From NCBI RefSeq assembly GCF_014270065.1, contig NZ_JACNME010000021.1, positions 1-36,647 of the forward strand: DNA of 36,647 nt. Reading direction: 5' to 3'. The position numbers and the translations under genes are program-made. The DNA comes from Quadrisphaera sp. RL12-1S. GTDB lineage: Bacteria; Actinomycetota; Actinomycetes; Actinomycetales; Quadrisphaeraceae. Every line of letters starts with the position of its first letter. The first letter of the stretch is position 1. The notes beneath the pieces were generated by a model. It did not search any database. It was not told the DNA's origin and saw only the letters and a program-made list of their open reading frames with translations. Shown here in pieces: positions 14,555 through 36,647 of this stretch.

Positions 14555-16048
14555 TCAGGCCCAGCGCAGGGCGGTGTCGGGGCGCTCGAGCACGCGGGCG
14601 ACGTCGGCGAGGAACTTGGAGCCGAGGTCGCCGTCGACGAGGCGGTGGTCGAAGGAGACCGACAGCTCCACCACGTCGCGCGGCTTGACCTTGCCCTTGT
14701 GCACCCATGGCTTCTTGGCCACCTGGCCCACGCAGAGGATCGCGGCCTCGCCGGGGTTGAGGATCGGGGTGCCGGAGTCGACGCCGAAGACGCCGATGTT
14801 GGTGATGGACAGGGTGCTGCCCGACAGGTCCGCCGGCTGCGAGCGACCCGCGCGCGCCGTGGAGACCAGGTCGCCGAGGGCGTGGGCGAGCTGCACGAGG
14901 GACATCTCGTGAGCGTCCTTGATGCTCGGCACGAGCAGGCCGCGCGGTGAGGCCACGGCGATGCCGAGGTTCACGTAGTGCTTGATGACGATCTCCTGCG
15001 CGAGCTCGTCCCAGCTGGCGTTGATGCCGGGGTGACGAGCAGCCGCCAGGCACACCGCGCGGGCGACGAGCAGCAGCGGTGAGACGTGCACGTCGCGGAA
15101 CTCGCGCTCGGCGCGGACCCGCTCGAGCATCTTCATGGAGCGGGTCACGTCCACCGTGACGAAAGCGGTGGCGTGCGGCGCGGTGAAGGCGCTGGCCACC
15201 ATCTGGCGGGCCGTGGCGCGGCGCACGCCGCGGACGGGGATGCGGGTCTCGCGCTCGTCGGACCCGGCGCCGGCCGGGGCGGCCTCGGCGGGCAGCTGGA
15301 CGACGTCGGCGGCCTGGCCGGCGGGGGGCTCGGGCAGCGCGCCGCGGGCGTCCACGAACGCGCGGACGTCGTCGCGGGTGACCACGCCGCCGTCGCCGGT
15401 GGCGACCACGCGGGCGAGGTCCACGCCGAGGTCGCGGGCCATGGCGCGCACGGGCGGGGAGGCGAGCGGGCGGTCGGTGCTGGCGCGCTGGCCGGGGGCG
15501 GCGGGCGCGACGGGCGCGACGGCGGCCGACGAGGGCGCCGCCTCGGCGCCGGGACGCTGGCTGCGCACGGTGCGGCGGCGGCGCGCGGGGTGGCCGTGGG
15601 TGGCGGGGCGCACGCCGTAGCCGACCAGCACCGCCTCGCGCTCGGTCTCGTGCTCGTGGTCGACGGCGGAGACGGGACCGCCCTGCAGACCGGAGCCTCC
15701 CTGGCCGGTGGGCGCGACGGGCGCGGGCCGGTGGGCGTGGTCACGGGGAGCGTCGTCACCGGGCCCGGCCGGGCCGGAGGTCTGCACGGCGATGAGGGGG
15801 GTGCCGACGTCCACGGTGGTGCCCTCGGGCACGAGCAGGCCGACCACGGTGCCGGAGAACGGCGAGGGCAGCTCGACGAGGGACTTGGCGGTCTCGACCT
15901 CCACCACCGTGTCGCCGTCGGCCACGACGTCGCCGACCGCGACCCGCCAGCTGACGACCTCGGCCTCGGTGAGGCCCTCGCCGACGTCGGGCAGGAGGAA
16001 GTGCTGGGTGGTCTGGGAGCTCGCGGTGGTGCTCGTCGGAGTGGTCAC
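14555..16048 (-). CDS. Dihydrolipoamide acyltransferase (E2) of a 2-oxo-acid dehydrogenase complex
   Basis: E2 core enzyme of 497 residues. The order is: lipoyl domain (about 15-90, lipoyl-Lys55 in VEVETAKSLVEL), a long Ala/Pro/Arg-rich linker with REAVLVGYGVRP, the E3/E1-binding domain (196-233, ASPPVRAMARDLGVDLARV) and the catalytic domain (265-497), with SFDHRLVDGDLGSKF holding His468 and Asp472. The linker motif and E1 partners point to the branched-chain or broad acyl type rather than the three-domain actinobacterial pyruvate E2. GTG 16048 is chosen because GAGGAGG sits five bases upstream; GTG 16084 would add 12 residues but lacks such a site. There are 40 bases to the E1beta stop. No E3 gene is nearby; complexes often share lpd. 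Confidence 0.9.
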   Translation of the reverse strand: MTTPTSTTASSQTTQHFLLPDVGEGLTEAEVVSWRVAVGDVVADGDTVVEVETAKSLVELPSPFSGTVVGLLVPEGTTVDVGTPLIAVQTSGPAGPGDDAPRDHAHRPAPVAPTGQGGSGLQGGPVSAVDHEHETEREAVLVGYGVRPATHGHPARRRRTVRSQRPGAEAAPSSAAVAPVAPAAPGQRASTDRPLASPPVRAMARDLGVDLARVVATGDGGVVTRDDVRAFVDARGALPEPPAGQAADVVQLPAEAAPAGAGSDERETRIPVRGVRRATARQMVASAFTAPHATAFVTVDVTRSMKMLERVRAEREFRDVHVSPLLLVARAVCLAAARHPGINASWDELAQEIVIKHYVNLGIAVASPRGLLVPSIKDAHEMSLVQLAHALGDLVSTARAGRSQPADLSGSTLSITNIGVFGVDSGTPILNPGEAAILCVGQVAKKPWVHKGKVKPRDVVELSVSFDHRLVDGDLGSKFLADVARVLERPDTALRWA

Positions 16049-16088
16049 GGACGCCTCCTCGCGGGTGGTGGTCACGGTGGTCACGCGC

Positions 16089-17207
16089 TCAGGCCAGGAC
16101 GCGGTCGACGGCGTCGAGCAGCCGCTCGGCGTCGGGGAGGTAGTGCTCCTCGATGCGCGCCGCCGGGTAGGGCACGGAGAAGCCGCCCACGCGGAGCACG
16201 GGCGCCTCGAGGGAGTGGAAGCAGCTCTCGGTGACCCGCGCGGCCACCTCCGCCCCCATGCCCAGGAACACGGGGGCCTCGTGGACGACGACGACGCGGC
16301 CGGTGCGCCGGGCGCTGGCCTCGACCACGCCGACGTCGAGCGGGGAGAGGCTGCGCAGGTCCACGACCTCCAGCTCCACGCCCTCCTCGGCGGCGGCCAG
16401 GGCGGCGTCGAGCGCCACCCGCACCGTCGGGCCGTACGCGACCACGGTGACGGCGCCGCCCTCGGACACGCGGGCGTCGCTGACGGGGCGGGCGACGCGG
16501 GCGGAGTGCAGCCCCGGGGCCGCAGCGAGGGCGGCGGCGGAGGTGTCGACGGCGCCCTTGTCCCAGTACCGGCGCTTGGGCTCCATGACGATGACCGGGT
16601 CGGGCTGGGTGAGCGACTGCCGCAGCATCCAGTAGGCGTCCTGCGGGGTGGCGGGAGAGATGACCCGCAGCCCCGCGGTGTGGGCGAAGTACGCCTCGGG
16701 CGACTCGCTGTGGTGCTCCACGGCGCCGATGCCGCCGCCGTAGGGGATCCGGACGACGACGGGCAGCTGACCGGCCCCCGCCAGGCGGGCGGGCATCTTG
16801 GCCAGCTGGGAGACGATCTGGCTGAACGCGGGGTAGACGAACCCGTCGAACTGGATCTCGCACACGGGCCGGTAGCCGCGCAGCGCGAGCCCGATGGCGG
16901 CGCCGAGGATGGTGGCCTCGGCGAGCGGGGTGTCCACCACGCGGTCCTCGCCGAAGGTGGCCTGCAGGCCGTCCGTGACGCGGAAGACGCCCCCGAGGCG
17001 GCCGATGTCCTCGCCCATCAGCAGGACCTTCTCGTCGGCGGCCATCGCGTCGTGCAGCGCGGCGGTGATGGCCTTGGCGAGGGTGAGGGTGGCGGTCCCG
17101 GACGCGCCCGACGCGCCCGACGCACCGGCTGGGGTGGCCGCGGCCCCGGTCGGCGACGCGGTCTGGTCCGGGGTCGGTGCGGTGGGACGGGTGGTGGTGG
17201 CGCTCAT
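16089..17207 (-). CDS. 2-oxo-acid dehydrogenase E1 beta subunit
   Basis: E1beta of 372 residues, partner of E1alpha in thiamine-diphosphate-dependent decarboxylation of a 2-oxo acid. The core starts near residue 40 with LTLAKAITAALHDAMAADEKVLLMGEDIG, the family hallmark, followed by DTPLAEATILGAAIGLALRGYRPVCEIQF and, near the end, VHEAPVFLGMGAEVAARV. The first 38 residues are a low-complexity tail ending in three Gly-Ala-Ser repeats coded by a 9-base tandem near 17101-17126; this is unusual for the family. ATG 17207 has GGAGG upstream and overlaps the E1alpha stop in ATGA. Sequence style (HHSESPEAYFAHTAGL) matches branched-chain and pyruvate E1beta equally, so the substrate is not certain. 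Confidence 0.92.
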   Translation of the reverse strand: MSATTTRPTAPTPDQTASPTGAAATPAGASGASGASGTATLTLAKAITAALHDAMAADEKVLLMGEDIGRLGGVFRVTDGLQATFGEDRVVDTPLAEATILGAAIGLALRGYRPVCEIQFDGFVYPAFSQIVSQLAKMPARLAGAGQLPVVVRIPYGGGIGAVEHHSESPEAYFAHTAGLRVISPATPQDAYWMLRQSLTQPDPVIVMEPKRRYWDKGAVDTSAAALAAAPGLHSARVARPVSDARVSEGGAVTVVAYGPTVRVALDAALAAAEEGVELEVVDLRSLSPLDVGVVEASARRTGRVVVVHEAPVFLGMGAEVAARVTESCFHSLEAPVLRVGGFSVPYPAARIEEHYLPDAERLLDAVDRVLA

Positions 17208-18355
17208 CGGGCCTCCTCCGGCTCGGTGGCCAGCCAGGTCTCCAGCCAGGCGCGCTCGGAGGCGACCAGCGGGTGCTCGGCGGCGTAGGCGTGGTCGAAC
17301 ATCGAGGTGGGCGCCGGGTCGGTCATCTCGCGGACCCCGCGGCGCACGCGGGCGCCGAGCTCGTCGGACTCCCCGCGGACGGCGTCGAAGAAGGCGTCGT
17401 CGGCGCCGTCGGTGGCGCGCAGGTGGGCCTCCACGCGGGCGAGGGGGTCCTTGGCGCGCCAGGAGTCCTCCTCCTCGCGGGTGCGGTAGCGCCCGGCGTC
17501 GTCGGACGTGGTGTGGGCGTTCATGCGGTAGGTGACGGCTTCGACGAGCACCGGGCCGGCACCGCTGCGGGCCCGGTCGCCGGCAGCGCGGACCACGGCC
17601 TCCACCGCGAGGACGTCGTTGCCGTCCACCTGCACCCCCGGCATCCCGAACCCGGTGGCGCGCTGGTGGAGCGGCGCGGCGCTCTGGCGTGCGGTCGGGG
17701 CGGAGATGGCCCAGCCGTTGTTCTGGCAGAAGAAGACCACCGGGGCGCTGAAGACGGCCGCCCAGCTGAGCGCCTCGTTGACCTCGCCCTGGGAGCTGGC
17801 GCCGTCCCCGAAGCAGGCCATCACCGCGGTGTCGCGGCCGCGGTCCCCGGTGCCGACGAGGCCGTCGCGCTGGACGCCCATGGCGTAGCCGGTGGCGTGC
17901 GGCAGCTGCGCGCCGATGACCAGCGTGTAGAGATGGAACGCGTGGTCGGACGGGTCCCACCCGCCGTGGCTGGAGCCGCGGTAGAGCTGCAGCACCTGCA
18001 GCGGGTCCACGCCGCGCACCCAGGCGAGGCCGTGCTCGCGGTAGGTGGGGAAGACGTGGTCCTGGCCGGCCAGGCCGTGGCCGGCGCCCACCTGGGCGGC
18101 CTCCTGCCCGGTGCAGCTGGCCCACAGCGCCAGCTCGCCCTGGCGCTGCAGGGCGGTCGCCTCGACGTCGAACCGGCGGACCAGCGCCATGTCGCGGTAG
18201 CGGGCGCGCAGCTGCTCGGCGCCCACGTCCGCGACCAGCGCGGCGTACTCCTCGACGTCGGGGTACTCGCGCTCGCCGGTGGGCCGGCTGCGGCGGACCC
18301 CGGTGGGGCTGAGCAGCTGGACCGGCGCCTGCGGCGCGGGGGCGACGAGGGGCAC
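17204..18355 (-). CDS. 2-oxo-acid dehydrogenase E1 alpha subunit
   Basis: E1alpha of 383 residues. The thiamine-diphosphate motif runs from GDG (183-185) in CFGDGASSQGEVNEALSWA to NN (212-213) in FFCQNNGWAIS. The phosphate-loop region reads YRMNAHTTSDDAGRYR with His281. The HTTSDD form is the one usual in branched-chain E1alpha, whereas pyruvate enzymes usually have an HSMGD- or HTMAGD-like loop, so a branched-chain or aryl 2-oxo acid is favoured. GTG 18355 has a strong AGGAGGT five bases upstream. The stop overlaps the E1beta start. The gene follows pat on the same strand after 93 bases that contain the operator-like palindrome, so it may be read both with pat and from its own promoter. Confidence 0.92.
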   Translation of the reverse strand: MPLVAPAPQAPVQLLSPTGVRRSRPTGEREYPDVEEYAALVADVGAEQLRARYRDMALVRRFDVEATALQRQGELALWASCTGQEAAQVGAGHGLAGQDHVFPTYREHGLAWVRGVDPLQVLQLYRGSSHGGWDPSDHAFHLYTLVIGAQLPHATGYAMGVQRDGLVGTGDRGRDTAVMACFGDGASSQGEVNEALSWAAVFSAPVVFFCQNNGWAISAPTARQSAAPLHQRATGFGMPGVQVDGNDVLAVEAVVRAAGDRARSGAGPVLVEAVTYRMNAHTTSDDAGRYRTREEEDSWRAKDPLARVEAHLRATDGADDAFFDAVRGESDELGARVRRGVREMTDPAPTSMFDHAYAAEHPLVASERAWLETWLATEPEEAR

Positions 18356-18375
18356 GAGACCTCCTGTGCTGGGAT

Positions 18376-18408
18376 ACCTACGGAACCGTACCTTACGGTT
18401 CCGTAGGT
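18376..18408. promoter_or_regulatory. Perfect 33-bp palindromic operator upstream of the E1alpha-E1beta-E2 operon
   Basis: ACCTACGGAACCGTA (18376-18390) and TACGGTTCCGTAGGT (18394-18408) are exact reverse complements around CCT. Each arm itself contains a 12-bp palindrome, TACGG-AA-CCGTA and TACGG-TT-CCGTA. It lies 20 bases upstream of the GTG. Two overlapping dyads of this kind are typical of TetR-family sites that take two dimers. No T-run follows, so it is not a convincing terminator. Confidence 0.8.
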
Positions 18409-18448
18409 CTCAGCGGAAGCGGCGCGCGCGTCCCTCTCGACCAGCGCG

Positions 18449-19570
18449 TCAGCCCACGCGGTCGGGGCTCCAGCCCTGCAGGAAGGCGCCGCACACCTCG
18501 AGCAGCACGTCGTCAGCGGGCACGTCGCCGACCGTCGCCCTCACGCCGTCGCTGCCGTACCCGCGCACCGACAGCCCGGCCTGCGCGCAGGCGGCCACGA
18601 GGTCGGGCGTGGAGCTGCCCACCGGCAGGTAGACGAAGTTCGCCTCCGAGCGCGGCAGCCGCCACCCCTGGCGGGCGAGCTCCGCGGCCACCCGCTCCCG
18701 CTCGTCGACGATGGCGTCCACCCGCTCCAAGAGGGCGTCCGCCTGCTGCAGGGACGCGACGGCCGCCAGCTGGGCGATCCCGGAGACGCCGAACGGCACC
18801 GCGGTGCGCCGCAGCGCCTCGGCGACGGGCTCGTGCGCCACCGCGTAGCCCACGCGCAGGCCCGCCAGCCCGTAGGCCTTGGAGAACGTGCGCAGCACCA
18901 TGGCGTTGGGGTGGGCGCGGTGCACCGCCAGCCCGTCCGCGGCGGTGGGGTCGCGCACGAACTCGAGGTAGGCCTCGTCCACCACCACGAGCACGTCGCG
19001 GGGGACGCGCGCCAAGAAGGCCTCCAGCTCCTGGGCGCCCACGACCGGTCCGGTGGGGTTGTTGGGGGTGCAGACCAGCACCAGGCGCGTGCGCTCGGTG
19101 ATGGCGTCGGCCATGGCGTCCAGGTCGTGCCGGCCCGCGCCGTCCAGCGGCACCGGCACGGGACGGGCACCGGACAGCCCCACGACGATGGGGTAGGCCT
19201 CGAAGGAGCGCCAGGCGAAGACGACCTCGTCGCCGGGCTCGCAGACCGCCTGCACCACGGACCCGAGCACGCCCACGCTGCCGGTGCCCGGCACCACCCG
19301 CGCCGCGGGCACGTCGAGGTGCTCGGCGAGGGCGTGGACGAGGTCCGCCGACCCCATGTCGGGGTAGCGGTTCAGGTCCGCGGCGGCGCGCTGCACCACC
19401 TCCAGCACGGCGGGCAGCGGCGGGTACGGGTTCTCGTTCGAGGAGATCTTGTAGGAGGCACCACCGGGGCCCACCGGCGCGGGACGGCCCGGCAGGTAGC
19501 CGGGCAGGGCGCCCACCGCGGCGCGCAGGCGGGGGGAGGACGAGGACGGCGAGGACGACGGGGTGCTCAC
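18449..19570 (-). CDS. pat: HisC-family aromatic amino acid aminotransferase (Pat type)
   Basis: Fold-type I PLP aminotransferase of 373 residues. Motifs: YKISSNENPYPPLPAV, GTGSVGVLGSVVQAVC, FAWRSFEAYPIVV, CTPNNPTGP, VVVDEAYLEFV and TFSKAYGLAGLRVGYAVAH with the PLP-Lys231. The GTGSVGVL and AWRSFEAYPIVV forms are those of actinobacterial Pat (HisC2), which moves amino groups between aromatic amino acids and their 2-oxo acids; a true histidinol-phosphate role cannot be excluded, but no his genes are near. Start: GTG 19570 is used; GTG 19579 adds three residues. It is 41 bases from the palindrome and 93 from the E1alpha start on the same strand. Its product class, 2-oxo acids, fits the neighbouring dehydrogenase. 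Confidence 0.88.
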   Translation of the reverse strand: MSTPSSSPSSSSPRLRAAVGALPGYLPGRPAPVGPGGASYKISSNENPYPPLPAVLEVVQRAAADLNRYPDMGSADLVHALAEHLDVPAARVVPGTGSVGVLGSVVQAVCEPGDEVVFAWRSFEAYPIVVGLSGARPVPVPLDGAGRHDLDAMADAITERTRLVLVCTPNNPTGPVVGAQELEAFLARVPRDVLVVVDEAYLEFVRDPTAADGLAVHRAHPNAMVLRTFSKAYGLAGLRVGYAVAHEPVAEALRRTAVPFGVSGIAQLAAVASLQQADALLERVDAIVDERERVAAELARQGWRLPRSEANFVYLPVGSSTPDLVAACAQAGLSVRGYGSDGVRATVGDVPADDVLLEVCGAFLQGWSPDRVG

Positions 19571-19664
19571 GGCCGCCACCGTAGGCCGACGGGCCCACCA
19601 CCCGGGAGGACGAGCGCCACGCCCTCGGCGTGCGCCCGCCCCGGCTCAGGAGGAAGGTGCCCGC

Positions 19665-25603: not shown

Positions 25604-25631
25604 GACCCCCGCGCCACCTGGCGCGGGGGTC
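25604..25631. terminator. Strong hairpin terminator after the M23-like gene
   Basis: GACCCCCGCGCC (25604-25615) and GGCGCGGGGGTC (25620-25631) form a perfect 12-bp stem with an ACCT loop, followed by TTCTC. It lies 44 bases after the M23-like stop and 28 bases before the purB start, so it probably ends the first transcript. Confidence 0.85.
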
Positions 25632-27118: not shown

Positions 27119-27152
27119 GACGGCCCCGGACCCGAGCGGGTCCGGGGCCGTC
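27119..27152. terminator. Strong bidirectional terminator between purB and the aldo/keto reductase
   Basis: GACGGCCCCGGACCC (27119-27133) and GGGTCCGGGGCCGTC (27138-27152) form a perfect 15-bp stem with a GAGC loop. It lies between the converging stops of purB (27098) and the aldo/keto reductase (27163) and would work on both transcripts. Confidence 0.9.
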
Positions 27153-34043: not shown

Positions 34044-34640
34044 GTGACCCACCTGGTGACCACCGAGCGTCTCGTCGTGCGCGACTGGGAGCTCTCTGAC
34101 GCCGCCGCCGCCCTCACCGTCTTCGGGGACGAGAGGGTGTCCCGCTGGCTCGCGCCCGCGGCCGACGCGGTTCCGGACGAGCAGGCCATGGCCGCCCGCC
34201 TGGAGCAGTGGCGCGCCGAGCAGGTGCGCGAGGGGGACGACGTCGAGCAGTTCGTCGGCCGGTGGGCCCTGGCCCGCTCCGAGGACGGCGTGGTGGTCGG
34301 CGCGCTGGTGCTGCGCACGATGCCGCCGCACGGGGAGGACCTGGAGATCGCCTGGCAGCTGGCGCCCGAGCACTGGGGCCACAGCTACGCCAGCGAGGGC
34401 GCGCGGGCCCTGGCGGCCTGGGCCTTCCGGCAGGGCGCCTCCGAGGTGTTCGCCGTCATCAGGCCCGGCAACGAGCGCGGCGAGTGGATCGCGCGGCGCC
34501 TGGGCATGGAGTGGGTCGGCGAGACCGACAAGTACTACGACCTCCACCTGCGCGTGTACCGGCTGCGACCCTCCGACATCGCCCCGCCGGACCCGGTCAC
34601 CACCGGCTCGCTGCCGGTCATCACCCCTCGCCCCGCCTGA
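34044..34640 (+). CDS. GNAT-family N-acetyltransferase (RimJ/RimL-like)
   Basis: The 198-residue protein opens with TTERLVVRDWELSDAAAALTVFGDERVSRWL, the usual start of the Acetyltransf_3 (RimJ/RimL) group. It continues through LEIAWQLAPEHWGHSYASEGARALAAWAF, the acetyl-CoA binding region with the xxWGxGYAxEA-like motif (here HWGHSYASEG), and RPGNERGEWIARRLGMEWVG for the final strand. Family members acetylate ribosomal proteins or small amines; the target cannot be told. The C-terminal 25 residues are Pro-rich. GTG 34044 starts it 67 bases from the divergent crtY. The last 20 bases overlap the end of the convergent MFS gene. Confidence 0.9.
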   Translation: MTHLVTTERLVVRDWELSDAAAALTVFGDERVSRWLAPAADAVPDEQAMAARLEQWRAEQVREGDDVEQFVGRWALARSEDGVVVGALVLRTMPPHGEDLEIAWQLAPEHWGHSYASEGARALAAWAFRQGASEVFAVIRPGNERGEWIARRLGMEWVGETDKYYDLHLRVYRLRPSDIAPPDPVTTGSLPVITPRPA

Positions 34641-35937
34641 CGCCCGCGCCGGCGCGGTCCTTCTTCGGGAAGCGCTGCGCCAGCGCCACGCGGATCGGGG
34701 GCACCACCACCCCCTCGGACGCCAGCTGCGCCCGCACCTTGCGGCGCGTCACGAGGACGCCGACGAGGCCCACGGCCCACACGGCGTACTGCACGCTGAA
34801 GGCGGCCCGGAAGTCGCCGAGGGAGTAGTCGCCGCCGGTGACGTCGAGCACCACCCCGACGGCCAGGACGGTGAGCAGGCTCGCCACGAAGCCGCCCACG
34901 TTGACGATGCCCGTGGCGGTGCCCTGGCGGTCCGCGGGGTTGAAGGTGCGGGCGTAGTCGAACCCCACCATCGAGCCCGGTCCACCGCTGGCCAGCGCCA
35001 GCACGAGCAGGGCCAGCAGCCACAGCGGCGCGGGGCCGGGCCAGGCGATCACCGTCGTCCAGGCGGCCGCGTTGGCGGCCACGATGGTCAGCACCAGCCA
35101 GGAGCGGCGCAGCGGGTGGCGGGACACCAGGACGCCCAGGAGCGGCCCGGCCACCAGCCCCGCGACCACGTAGGAGGTGAACAGCGCGCTGACCGCGGCC
35201 TGCGGGACGCCTTCGCCGCGCTCGAGGAACGGGAAGCCCCACATGAGGGCGAACACCGTCCCGGGGAACTGCGTGGCGAAGTGGCTCCACAGGCCCAGGC
35301 GGGTGCCGGGGTGGCGCCAGGCGCGCACCAGGTCCCGACCGGCCTTGGACCAGCTCAGCGGCGGCCCCGAGCGGCTGCGCACGCCCGGGGCGTCGCGCAC
35401 CACGAGGGCCACGAGGACGACGGCGAGCACTCCGAGGGCCGCCGCTGACGCGAACGCCGGCGTCCACCCCGGCCCGGAGAGGACCGCGACGAGCGGGACG
35501 GCGGAGAGCACCTGCCCCAGCTGGCCGAGAAGGCCCGTGAGCTGGGTGATGACGGGGGCCTGGCGGGCGGGGAACCAGGCGCCCACCAGTCGCAGCACGC
35601 TGATGAAGGTGAGGGCGTCACCGGCGCCGACGAGCACGCGGCCGAGCACCGCCAGCGGCAGCACCTCGCCCACGGCGAGCACCAGCTGGCCGGCCGCCAT
35701 GAGCAGGCCGCCGACCACCACGAGCCGGCGCGTGCCGAACCTGTCCAGGAGCACTCCCGCGGGCACCTGGAGGAGGGCGTAGACGAGCAGCTGGAGCACG
35801 GTGAAGGCGGAGACGGCGGCTGCTGTGGTGCCGAACCTGTCGACCGCGTCGAGCCCCGCGACCCCGAACGAGGTCCTCTGCAGGACCGCCACCACGTACG
35901 CCGCGACGCCGACGCCCCAGACCACCCACGCGCGCAC
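34621..35937 (-). CDS. MFS transporter
   Basis: Permease of about 438 residues with 12 predicted helices. GTG 35937 gives VRAWVVWGVGVAAYVVAVLQRTSFGVAGLDAV, typical of the nitrate/hexose-phosphate/oxalate-like MFS branch, and the loop 2-3 motif reads LLDRFGTRRLVVVGG. The loop between the halves is short, and the C-terminal tail is basic (RRKVRAQL, then RFPKKDRAGAGVRRGEG). The substrate is unknown; it is likely an anion, sugar or drug. Longer open frames reach through the upstream gap and are not real. Its stop codon lies inside the GNAT gene end. The terminator of the DUF1540 gene separates it from that gene upstream. Confidence 0.87.
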   Translation of the reverse strand: MRAWVVWGVGVAAYVVAVLQRTSFGVAGLDAVDRFGTTAAAVSAFTVLQLLVYALLQVPAGVLLDRFGTRRLVVVGGLLMAAGQLVLAVGEVLPLAVLGRVLVGAGDALTFISVLRLVGAWFPARQAPVITQLTGLLGQLGQVLSAVPLVAVLSGPGWTPAFASAAALGVLAVVLVALVVRDAPGVRSRSGPPLSWSKAGRDLVRAWRHPGTRLGLWSHFATQFPGTVFALMWGFPFLERGEGVPQAAVSALFTSYVVAGLVAGPLLGVLVSRHPLRRSWLVLTIVAANAAAWTTVIAWPGPAPLWLLALLVLALASGGPGSMVGFDYARTFNPADRQGTATGIVNVGGFVASLLTVLAVGVVLDVTGGDYSLGDFRAAFSVQYAVWAVGLVGVLVTRRKVRAQLASEGVVVPPIRVALAQRFPKKDRAGAGVRRGEG

Positions 35938-35990
35938 CCGACCAGTCTCCCGGGTGCTGGTGCCACGGACGCGCACCCCCCGTGGACGAC

Positions 35991-36028
35991 GACCGCCGGC
36001 CGTCGCCCACGGGCGACGACCGGCGGTC
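35991..36028. terminator. Long hairpin terminator after the DUF1540 gene
   Basis: GACCGCCGG (35991-35999) pairs with CCGGCGGTC (36020-36028), and CGTCGCC (36001-36007) pairs with GGCGACG (36012-36018), with one C-A mismatch between the blocks and a CACG loop. It begins 41 bases beyond the DUF1540 stop on the minus strand. It also isolates the MFS gene downstream. Confidence 0.85.
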
Positions 36029-36068
36029 CGGGTGGTGCTGGTGCGCCCGGGTGCCGGGCGCGGGCGGC

Positions 36069-36371
36069 TCAGGAGGCCTGGAAGGTGAGGCACGCCGCGG
36101 TGTCGGCACCGCTCGCGCCGGCGCCCACGCGGATGGAGCTGGCGGTGCACTCGAGGTCGGCGTTGAACGCGCAGTTGCTGCGCGAGCAGGCGCCCACCTG
36201 GGCCACGACCTTGTCCAGGCCGCCCTTGCGGCTGAGCGGGATGAAGGTCCCGCAGTCCGCAGACCCGTCGGCAGAGCCGACGGTGATCGCGAAGGCGTGG
36301 CAGCCGTCGTGGTTGTACGAGCAACCGGCGACGGTGCACTCGGTGACGGCGGGCATCTCGAGCGTGGCCAC
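36069..36371 (-). CDS. Tandem DUF1540 protein (Cys-rich, probable metal binder)
   Basis: The 100-residue protein has GTG 36371 as start, with GGAGGT four bases upstream, a strong site. It holds two copies of a DUF1540-like motif. The first has Cys12, Cys17, Cys24 and Cys40 (CTVAGCSYNHDGC, then ADCGTF); the second has Cys62, Cys67, Cys75 and Cys94 (CSRSNCAFNADLEC, then AACLTF). Four Cys per copy in the same spacing suggest two small metal sites, probably zinc. The family occurs in actinobacteria and firmicutes, and its function is unknown. There is no signal sequence. It is transcribed alone, with a terminator downstream and about 115 bases upstream before the AT-rich hairpin at 36488. Confidence 0.85.
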   Translation of the reverse strand: MATLEMPAVTECTVAGCSYNHDGCHAFAITVGSADGSADCGTFIPLSRKGGLDKVVAQVGACSRSNCAFNADLECTASSIRVGAGASGADTAACLTFQAS

Positions 36372-36487: not shown

Positions 36488-36529
36488 CTTTCGATATTCG
36501 GTGAGGCTGCCCTCACCGAATATCGAAAG
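36488..36529. repeat. Perfect 19-bp-stem hairpin with an A+T core
   Basis: CTTTCGATATTCGGTGAGG (36488-36506) is the exact reverse complement of CCTCACCGAATATCGAAAG (36511-36529), with a CTGC loop. The TATTCG/CGAATA core is unusually A+T-rich for this genome. The 14-mer GGTGAGGCTGCCCT across the loop is repeated at 36548-36561. It lies seven bases beyond the stop of the gene entering from the right and 117 bases upstream of the DUF1540 start, so it may be a terminator, an operator or both. Confidence 0.85.
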
Positions 36530-36535
36530 GACGGC

Positions 36536-36647
36536 TCAGCGATATGAGGTGAGGCTGCCCTGGCCGCCGCGGCGGCCGCCCTGGCCGCCCTGGCGGCCGC
36601 GGCCCGAGCCCCCACCGCTGGCGGCCGCGCCGGCGGTGGGGGCTCGG
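36536..36647 (-). CDS. C-terminal end of a Gly/Arg-rich protein (partial, cut by window edge)
   Basis: One minus-strand frame ends at TGA 36538-36536. Its last residues include GRGRQGGQGGRRGGQG followed by SLTSYR and a stop, preceded by AAASGGGS. Gly-Arg-Gln-rich tails like this are common at the end of actinobacterial DEAD-box RNA helicases and other RNA-binding proteins, and the strong hairpin follows the stop as expected. Only 37 codons are visible, and other frames in this repetitive GC-rich stretch are also open, so the call is tentative. Confidence 0.4.
   Translation of the reverse strand, partial: RAPTAGAAASGGGSGRGRQGGQGGRRGGQGSLTSYR
36604..36647. repeat. Inverted repeat at the window edge
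   Basis: CCGAGCCCCCACCG (36604-36617) and CGGTGGGGGCTCGG (36634-36647) are exact reverse complements around a 16-base spacer, which itself can form a small GGC/GCC stem. The right arm ends exactly at the last base. The stem could be real (inside the Gly/Arg-rich coding stretch) or mark a fold-back at a contig end. Confidence 0.6.

Follow-up and report, generated by a model that had tools for sequence, protein, structure and literature searches.

A conserved double operator before a 2-oxo-acid dehydrogenase operon of Quadrisphaera and its candidate TetR-family regulator

A perfect 33-bp dyad lies in front of a 2-oxo-acid dehydrogenase operon of Quadrisphaera sp. RL12-1S, and the locus raises the question of which protein reads this site and for what purpose. 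The DNA analysed, referred to here as the window, is the whole stretch of 36,647 nucleotides from contig NZ_JACNME010000021.1, and its relevant features are collected in Table 1. The genes for E1alpha, E1beta and E2, which run from 18355 to 14555, either overlap or lie almost end to end and look like one operon. The substrate of E1alpha is uncertain, because its best model is named for pyruvate dehydrogenase and was matched below the cut-off. The aminotransferase gene upstream, which has the same direction as the operon here, is also found upstream of E1alpha in many relatives.

Table 1. Positions of the operator, the presumed expression signals and the adjoining genes in the window
Feature	Position	Strand	Basis or remark
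Double operator, 33-bp dyad	18376-18408	.	double site in 6/6 same-genus genomes
Operator unit 1, TACGGAACCGTA	18379-18390	.	exact 12-bp palindrome
Operator unit 2, TACGGTTCCGTA	18394-18405	.	12-bp palindrome, 15 bp from unit 1
TAAGGT, possible -10 hexamer (TANNNT), operator centre	18390-18395	-	invariant 6/6 in genus; promoter role inferred
GCTTCC, possible -35 region, 19 nt upstream of TAAGGT	18415-18420	-	invariant 6/6; role inferred
AGGAGG, likely ribosome-binding site of E1alpha	18360-18365	-	sequence, genus alignment
HisC/Pat-type aminotransferase, upstream of operator	18449-19579	-	NCBIfam NF002878, 491.6 bits; Pfam Aminotran_1_2
2-oxo-acid dehydrogenase E1alpha	17204-18355	-	Pfam E1_dh PF00676; NCBIfam TIGR03181, 406 bits, just below cut-off 411.35
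E1beta, start overlapping E1alpha stop	16089-17207	-	open frame; Pfam Transket_pyr, Transketolase_C
E2 acyltransferase	14555-16084	-	Pfam 2-oxoacid_dh, Biotin_lipoyl, E3_binding; all NCBIfam E2 models below cut-off

The paired palindrome and its conservation

The original prediction, made from the window, described two palindromes joined by CCT, and both the coordinates and the sequence were confirmed: the dyad reads ACCTACGGAACCGTA-CCT-TACGGTTCCGTAGGT, has a perfect 15+3+15 structure, ends 20 bases before the GTG of E1alpha and contains two exact TACGGWWCCGTA units. In 60 first-order Markov simulations of the window, arms of at least 15 with a loop of at most 8 never arose. Long dyads are nevertheless not unique to the operator, since the window holds two other perfect ones with arms of at least 15. 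Further copies had been suggested as a check, and TACGGNNCCGTA has no second copy in the 4.6-Mb genome; likewise, TACGNNNNCGTA-N3-TACGNNNNCGTA with up to 2 mismatches occurs there a single time, before E1alpha.

Several other repeats were observed in the window. Perfect G+C-rich dyads are present at 27119-27152 (16-bp arms) and 25604-25631 (13-bp arms), and the scanned open reading frames of those stretches gave no Pfam match. A perfect 19-bp inverted repeat with a 4-nt loop (CTTTCGATATTCGGTGAGG), longer than the operator dyad, occupies 36488-36529, about 150 bases upstream of an MFS transporter frame (34621-36339, minus strand). The 20-nt, 95% inverted repeat at 36604-36647 forms the extreme contig end and is perhaps why the assembly stops there.

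Each of the six same-genus genomes searched carries one double site, before E1alpha, and in the alignment of the six sequences GACCTACGG.ACCGTAAGGTACGG..CCGTAGGT is invariant while the upstream part is more variable. Across the order, 59 genomes were searched, 48 gave a match and 30 of these supplied one E1alpha locus each; a double site with at most 1 mismatch was found within 450 bp upstream at 15 of the 30 loci, a single exact unit was kept at two (G008 and G039), and neither was found at 13. Conservation before orthologous operons is thus observed, and it supports the E1alpha operon as the target that had been proposed. In the two loci with a single exact unit, L039 (G008) and L060 (G039), the intact unit stands beside a decayed second one, as if a double site were being lost.

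The long dyad itself is not shared by relatives. Mirrored halves were found in only 4 of 74 distinct exact double sites listed for the order and in 17 of 157 double sites among the matches listed in the named-genome scan, and the inner tetranucleotide is palindromic in 2 (left unit) and 3 (right unit) of the 74 exact order sites. Even within the genus the 33-bp symmetry fails in G004 and G005, where both 12-bp units retain their TACG/CGTA cores. Because the long dyad is not conserved, the motif is taken as TACGNNNNCGTA-N3-TACGNNNNCGTA; the 33-bp symmetry is incidental, and the paired TACGNNNNCGTA units are the conserved feature. The dyad that had been read as one unit is therefore real, but the unit which persists is the pair of 12-bp palindromes. 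For the same reason TACGGWWCCGTA, previously regarded as the half-site form, was rejected as too narrow, since the bases adjoining the core vary among relatives. Three tandem TACGNNNNCGTA units at a 15-bp pitch were seen at L017, L028, L106 and L062, so that the array can apparently be extended.

A candidate regulator of the TetR family

The window genome gives 22 matches to TetR_N at E<=1e-5, none of them on the window contig, and no Lrp/AsnC gene was found among the 24 window open reading frames scanned with Pfam. The original prediction that no regulator gene is present in the window thus stands for TetR proteins on the whole contig; other regulator types were looked for in the scanned frames. 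It had also suggested that a different regulator may be involved, and a candidate gene does lie on another contig. Four genomes of another genus in the family (G006, G009, G011 and G012) have the double site followed by a gene for a ferritin-like desaturase, desA (PF03405), and then by a TetR gene. The protein of the window genome (G000) designated P0004 (C3:434016-434615) is 73% identical to this desA-linked TetR, and the next TetR of that genome over a comparable length is 34% identical to it.

The distribution of this TetR across the order largely follows that of the site. P0004-type proteins occur in 144 of 198 genomes, with one match in the window genome and a single match in every carrier except G027 and G179, which have two partial pieces each. 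The double site (at most 1 mismatch) occurs in 118 of the 198, and a reversed control pattern in 4. Both were present in 114 genomes, the site alone in 4, the TetR alone in 30 and neither in 50; the TetR therefore accompanies 114 of the 118 double-site genomes, and the site is absent in 50 of the 54 TetR-less genomes. The association is strong (odds ratio 47.5, Fisher p 4.5e-21, a value which overstates independence because the genomes are related), and the split between genomes with and without the pair recurs inside families f3, f4 and f17. The one control TetR taken from the same genome was weakly associated with the site (both 61, site only 57, TetR only 20, neither 60; odds ratio 3.2, p 0.0002).

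Linkage and conservation of the protein point in the same direction. Besides the other genus of the family, the site adjoins the regulator gene in Streptomyces fildesensis, where the double site is followed by a PF00487 desaturase gene and then a P0004-type TetR, and in L208 and L220 (both contigs of metagenome-assembled genomes), where the gene behind it encodes a TetR with 47% identity to P0004. Nine of nine named double-site genomes tested had exactly one P0004 match (E<=1e-25), with 56-97% identity, and the DNA-binding motif VSKPxVYEHFGGKEG is invariant at all but one position in 21 orthologs. Based on this co-occurrence and linkage, the TetR type guessed for the operator is well supported, and the P0004-family protein, which would bind the site, can be named as regulator with good confidence. 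Contig NZ_VDMJ01000006.1 (Streptomyces sp. NP160, L188) appears to be the genome G002 of the window's own genus, with the TetR in the same place, and its placement in Streptomyces looks doubtful.

The correspondence is not complete. The double site is absent in 30 of the 144 TetR carriers, including 10 of 13 in f11 and all 7 in f6. Altered spacing was considered as the cause and discarded, for an exact pair with spacers of 0-12 was found in only 1 of the 30. Two of the four site-bearing genomes without the TetR are 62 and 73% complete, and the others 91 and 93%. No autoregulation is seen in the window genome, as no exact unit occurs within the 14 kb around P0004.

Genes behind the double sites

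A scan of named genomes for TACGGNNCCGTANNNTACGGNNCCGTA returned at least 117 stretches, and the genera among the matches listed include many Mycobacterium/Mycolicibacterium, as well as Streptomyces, Catellatospora, Amycolatopsis, Rhodococcus, Gordonia and others. The nearest genes were classified by tblastn, with overlapping pairs in triple arrays counted separately; the classification is descriptive, since the representatives, named by Pfam, were drawn from the same loci. Of the 76 distinct sites among the matches listed for the order, 75 precede a recurring set of mostly lipid genes: E1alpha (27), HlyIII/TrhA (23, of which 18 are divergent with UppS), FadD-like ligases (11), DesA (9), a desaturase-type reductase (2), NMO-like (2) and UppS alone (1). 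A fatty-acid role is not evident for the NMO-like and UppS genes, and several genes were labelled FadD-like at 25-40% identity. In the named set the same holds for 158 of 166 sites among the matches listed, that is, DesA3-type (52), FNR-type reductase (51), DesA (25), another membrane desaturase (10, one shared with a TetR gene), HlyIII/TrhA (6), E1alpha (4), FadD-like (4), NMO-like (4), an acyltransferase (1) and TetR alone (1). In many order relatives, e.g., L005 and L104, the double site stands between divergent uppS and hlyIII/trhA, which suggests a lipid-related role of the HlyIII protein.

These targets would connect P0004 with a known mycobacterial system. The orthologs of Mycobacterium aurum and M. 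lepraemurium are 64 and 62% identical to the window TetR and both adjoin a glmU-like gene; that of M. aurum lies between the glmU-like gene and mfd (TRCF domain). Rv1019 of M. tuberculosis is the gene between glmU and mfd, and the assignment of the P0004 family to Rv1019 rests on this synteny. Many named mycobacteria have this double site in front of FNR-DesA3-type operons, with orthologs and paralogs of the pair pooled. According to the available part of one paper, the fnr1-desA3 pair of M. kansasii is orthologous to Rv3230c-Rv3229c and mycobacteria have a paralogous reductase-desaturase pair; its reference list includes a 2022 FEBS J article whose title states that Rv1019 negatively regulates Rv3230c-Rv3229c (PMC9861118). 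The present case differs from the mycobacterial one in that the target is a 2-oxo-acid dehydrogenase, P0004 is not beside glmU, and there is one double site per genome.

The change of target may be related to the desaturases that a lineage possesses. Ferritin-like DesA was matched in the other genus, in the four genomes whose site stands at desA, but gave no match in the six genomes of the window's genus, a contrast that fits retargeting and is a single comparison. To regard the genus as lacking desaturases would be wrong, because PF00487 genes are present in G000-G005 and it is only ferritin-like DesA that is unmatched; the one PF00487 desaturase of the window genome has no site nearby. The site-less TetR carriers, the TetR-less sites, the missing site near P0004 and this site-free membrane desaturase indicate that the regulon is lineage-specific. 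In the window's genus its role rests on one site, and the regulon seems narrowed to the dehydrogenase operon.

It is possible, if rather unlikely, that the same site and TetR serve catabolic or central-carbon control, i.e., the use of branched-chain amino acids or pyruvate, and not membrane lipids. This would agree with the pyruvate dehydrogenase model that E1alpha matches just below the cut-off and with the aminotransferase upstream, but the other genes behind the site are, among the sites listed, mostly desaturases, FadD-like ligases and HlyIII/TrhA. A connection with membrane fatty acids through the supply of branched-chain lipid precursors is plausible.

Proposed mode of action and biological meaning

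The best explanation is that the site is a double operator for P0004, the Rv1019-family TetR, which probably represses E1alpha-E1beta-E2 as part of a membrane-fatty-acid regulon. Two TetR dimers would sit over the -10 region, one on each of the two 12-bp palindromes, as is suggested by the adjacency of these at a 15-bp pitch, and would block transcription of the operon. Such an arrangement resembles the QacR-type operator, a 28-bp palindrome bound as a tetramer according to the available extract of PMC4482099, in that the palindromic stretch is long enough for two dimers; it differs in consisting of two separate 12-bp units 15 bp apart. An acyl-CoA or related lipid signal, guessed by family, would release the dimers, and the dehydrogenase would supply branched-chain acyl-CoA primers, which would make the operon one branch of the regulon that in relatives includes desaturases, FadD-like ligases and HlyIII/TrhA.

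The promoter reading of the operator centre draws on the spacers. The TA-NNN-TA at the centre of a double site always yields a TANNNT hexamer, and among the listed sites 50 of 53 spacers oriented to FNR read AGT or GGT, so that the hexamer becomes TARGTT, compatible with a -10 role; those oriented to DesA3 are GGT in 37 of 48. Such a bias is not needed by a symmetric protein site. At E1alpha sites no comparable bias appears (GCC 10, GGC 7 and AGG 6 of 29), at TrhA sites ACC prevails (15 of 25) in the opposite direction, the FNR sites are mostly mycobacterial, and a sigma70 consensus scan found no promoter; the -10 reading is for these reasons suggestive only. In G001 and G003, GCTTCC and TAAGGT stand one position further apart.

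The TetR could also activate rather than repress, which we consider improbable. The nearest NCBIfam model of P0004 is the activator FasR (93.3 bits, far below the cut-off of 330), and the nearest solved relative is PDB 6o6n (1.3e-22, residues 5-188), presumably FasR itself, whose ligand is acyl-CoA. P0004 is a sequence relative of FasR which falls outside the FasR model. Against activation, the presumed -10 falls within the operator, which lies near the gene starts (class medians 7-77 bp, excepting NMO-like genes, whose starts are uncertain), and the title cited above calls Rv1019 a negative regulator.

Binding by a different protein, such as BkaR, MadR, an Lrp-type BkdR or another TetR, is more doubtful still; the Rv1019-family TetR encoded on the other contig is the most likely regulator. 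It had been stated that the known branched-chain dehydrogenase regulators of Streptomyces are of the Lrp type, which leaves out a mycobacterial TetR precedent: BkaR (Rv2506/MSMEG_4718) controls the bkd genes through GTTA(N)T(N4)A(N)TAAC (PMC3920632, available extract). BkaR resembles the present case as a TetR-type control of a branched-chain keto-acid operon. However, its motif is not found in the site, and its gene adjoins its targets, whereas no TetR_N match lies on the window contig or beside the operon. MadR (Rv0472c/MSMEG_0916), a TetR protein that represses desaturase genes until saturated acyl-CoAs release it, is similar in its tie to desaturases, but its binding consensus, TCTGTGxxxxxxxGT, does not match the window site. 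BkaR and MadR are disfavoured by these differing motifs, and the co-occurrence favours the P0004-type TetR over the one control TetR compared with it.

That the palindrome acts as RNA, either as an aminotransferase terminator or as a leader hairpin hiding the ribosome-binding site, is very improbable: the operator strand folds stably (-37.4 kcal/mol, z -3.92; none of 200 shuffled sequences reached this stability), and the AGGAGG region is paired in the fold, but neither a T-run after the stem nor a terminator match was found, and the broken dyad of G004 and G005, together with its retention in only 4 of the 74 listed order sites, led to its rejection.

A literature search with motif strings gave no match, and in the titles and abstract beginnings listed, mostly of open papers, neither the site nor an Rv1019-type regulator was linked to a branched-chain dehydrogenase. 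The regulon is of a known type; its target is unexpected, and a regulator can be assigned to it. The site would join the supply of branched lipid building blocks with membrane-lipid control. A wider proposal, to which we give even chances, is that one TetR, found from mycobacteria and Streptomyces to this genus, runs a membrane-lipid regulon across Actinobacteria and is retargeted from lineage to lineage by relocation of a single double operator: to desaturases in lineages where these fluidise the membrane, and to the supply of branched-chain acyl-CoA primers in this genus, in which no ferritin-like acyl-ACP desaturase DesA was found. An orphan palindrome becomes a named and testable regulator-operator pair, which suggests a way in which branched-chain lipids may be controlled in the actinobacteria that contain them. 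A little-described TetR family also gains a candidate operator and, as its candidate regulon, genes for desaturases, FadD-like ligases, HlyIII/TrhA and a branched-chain dehydrogenase.
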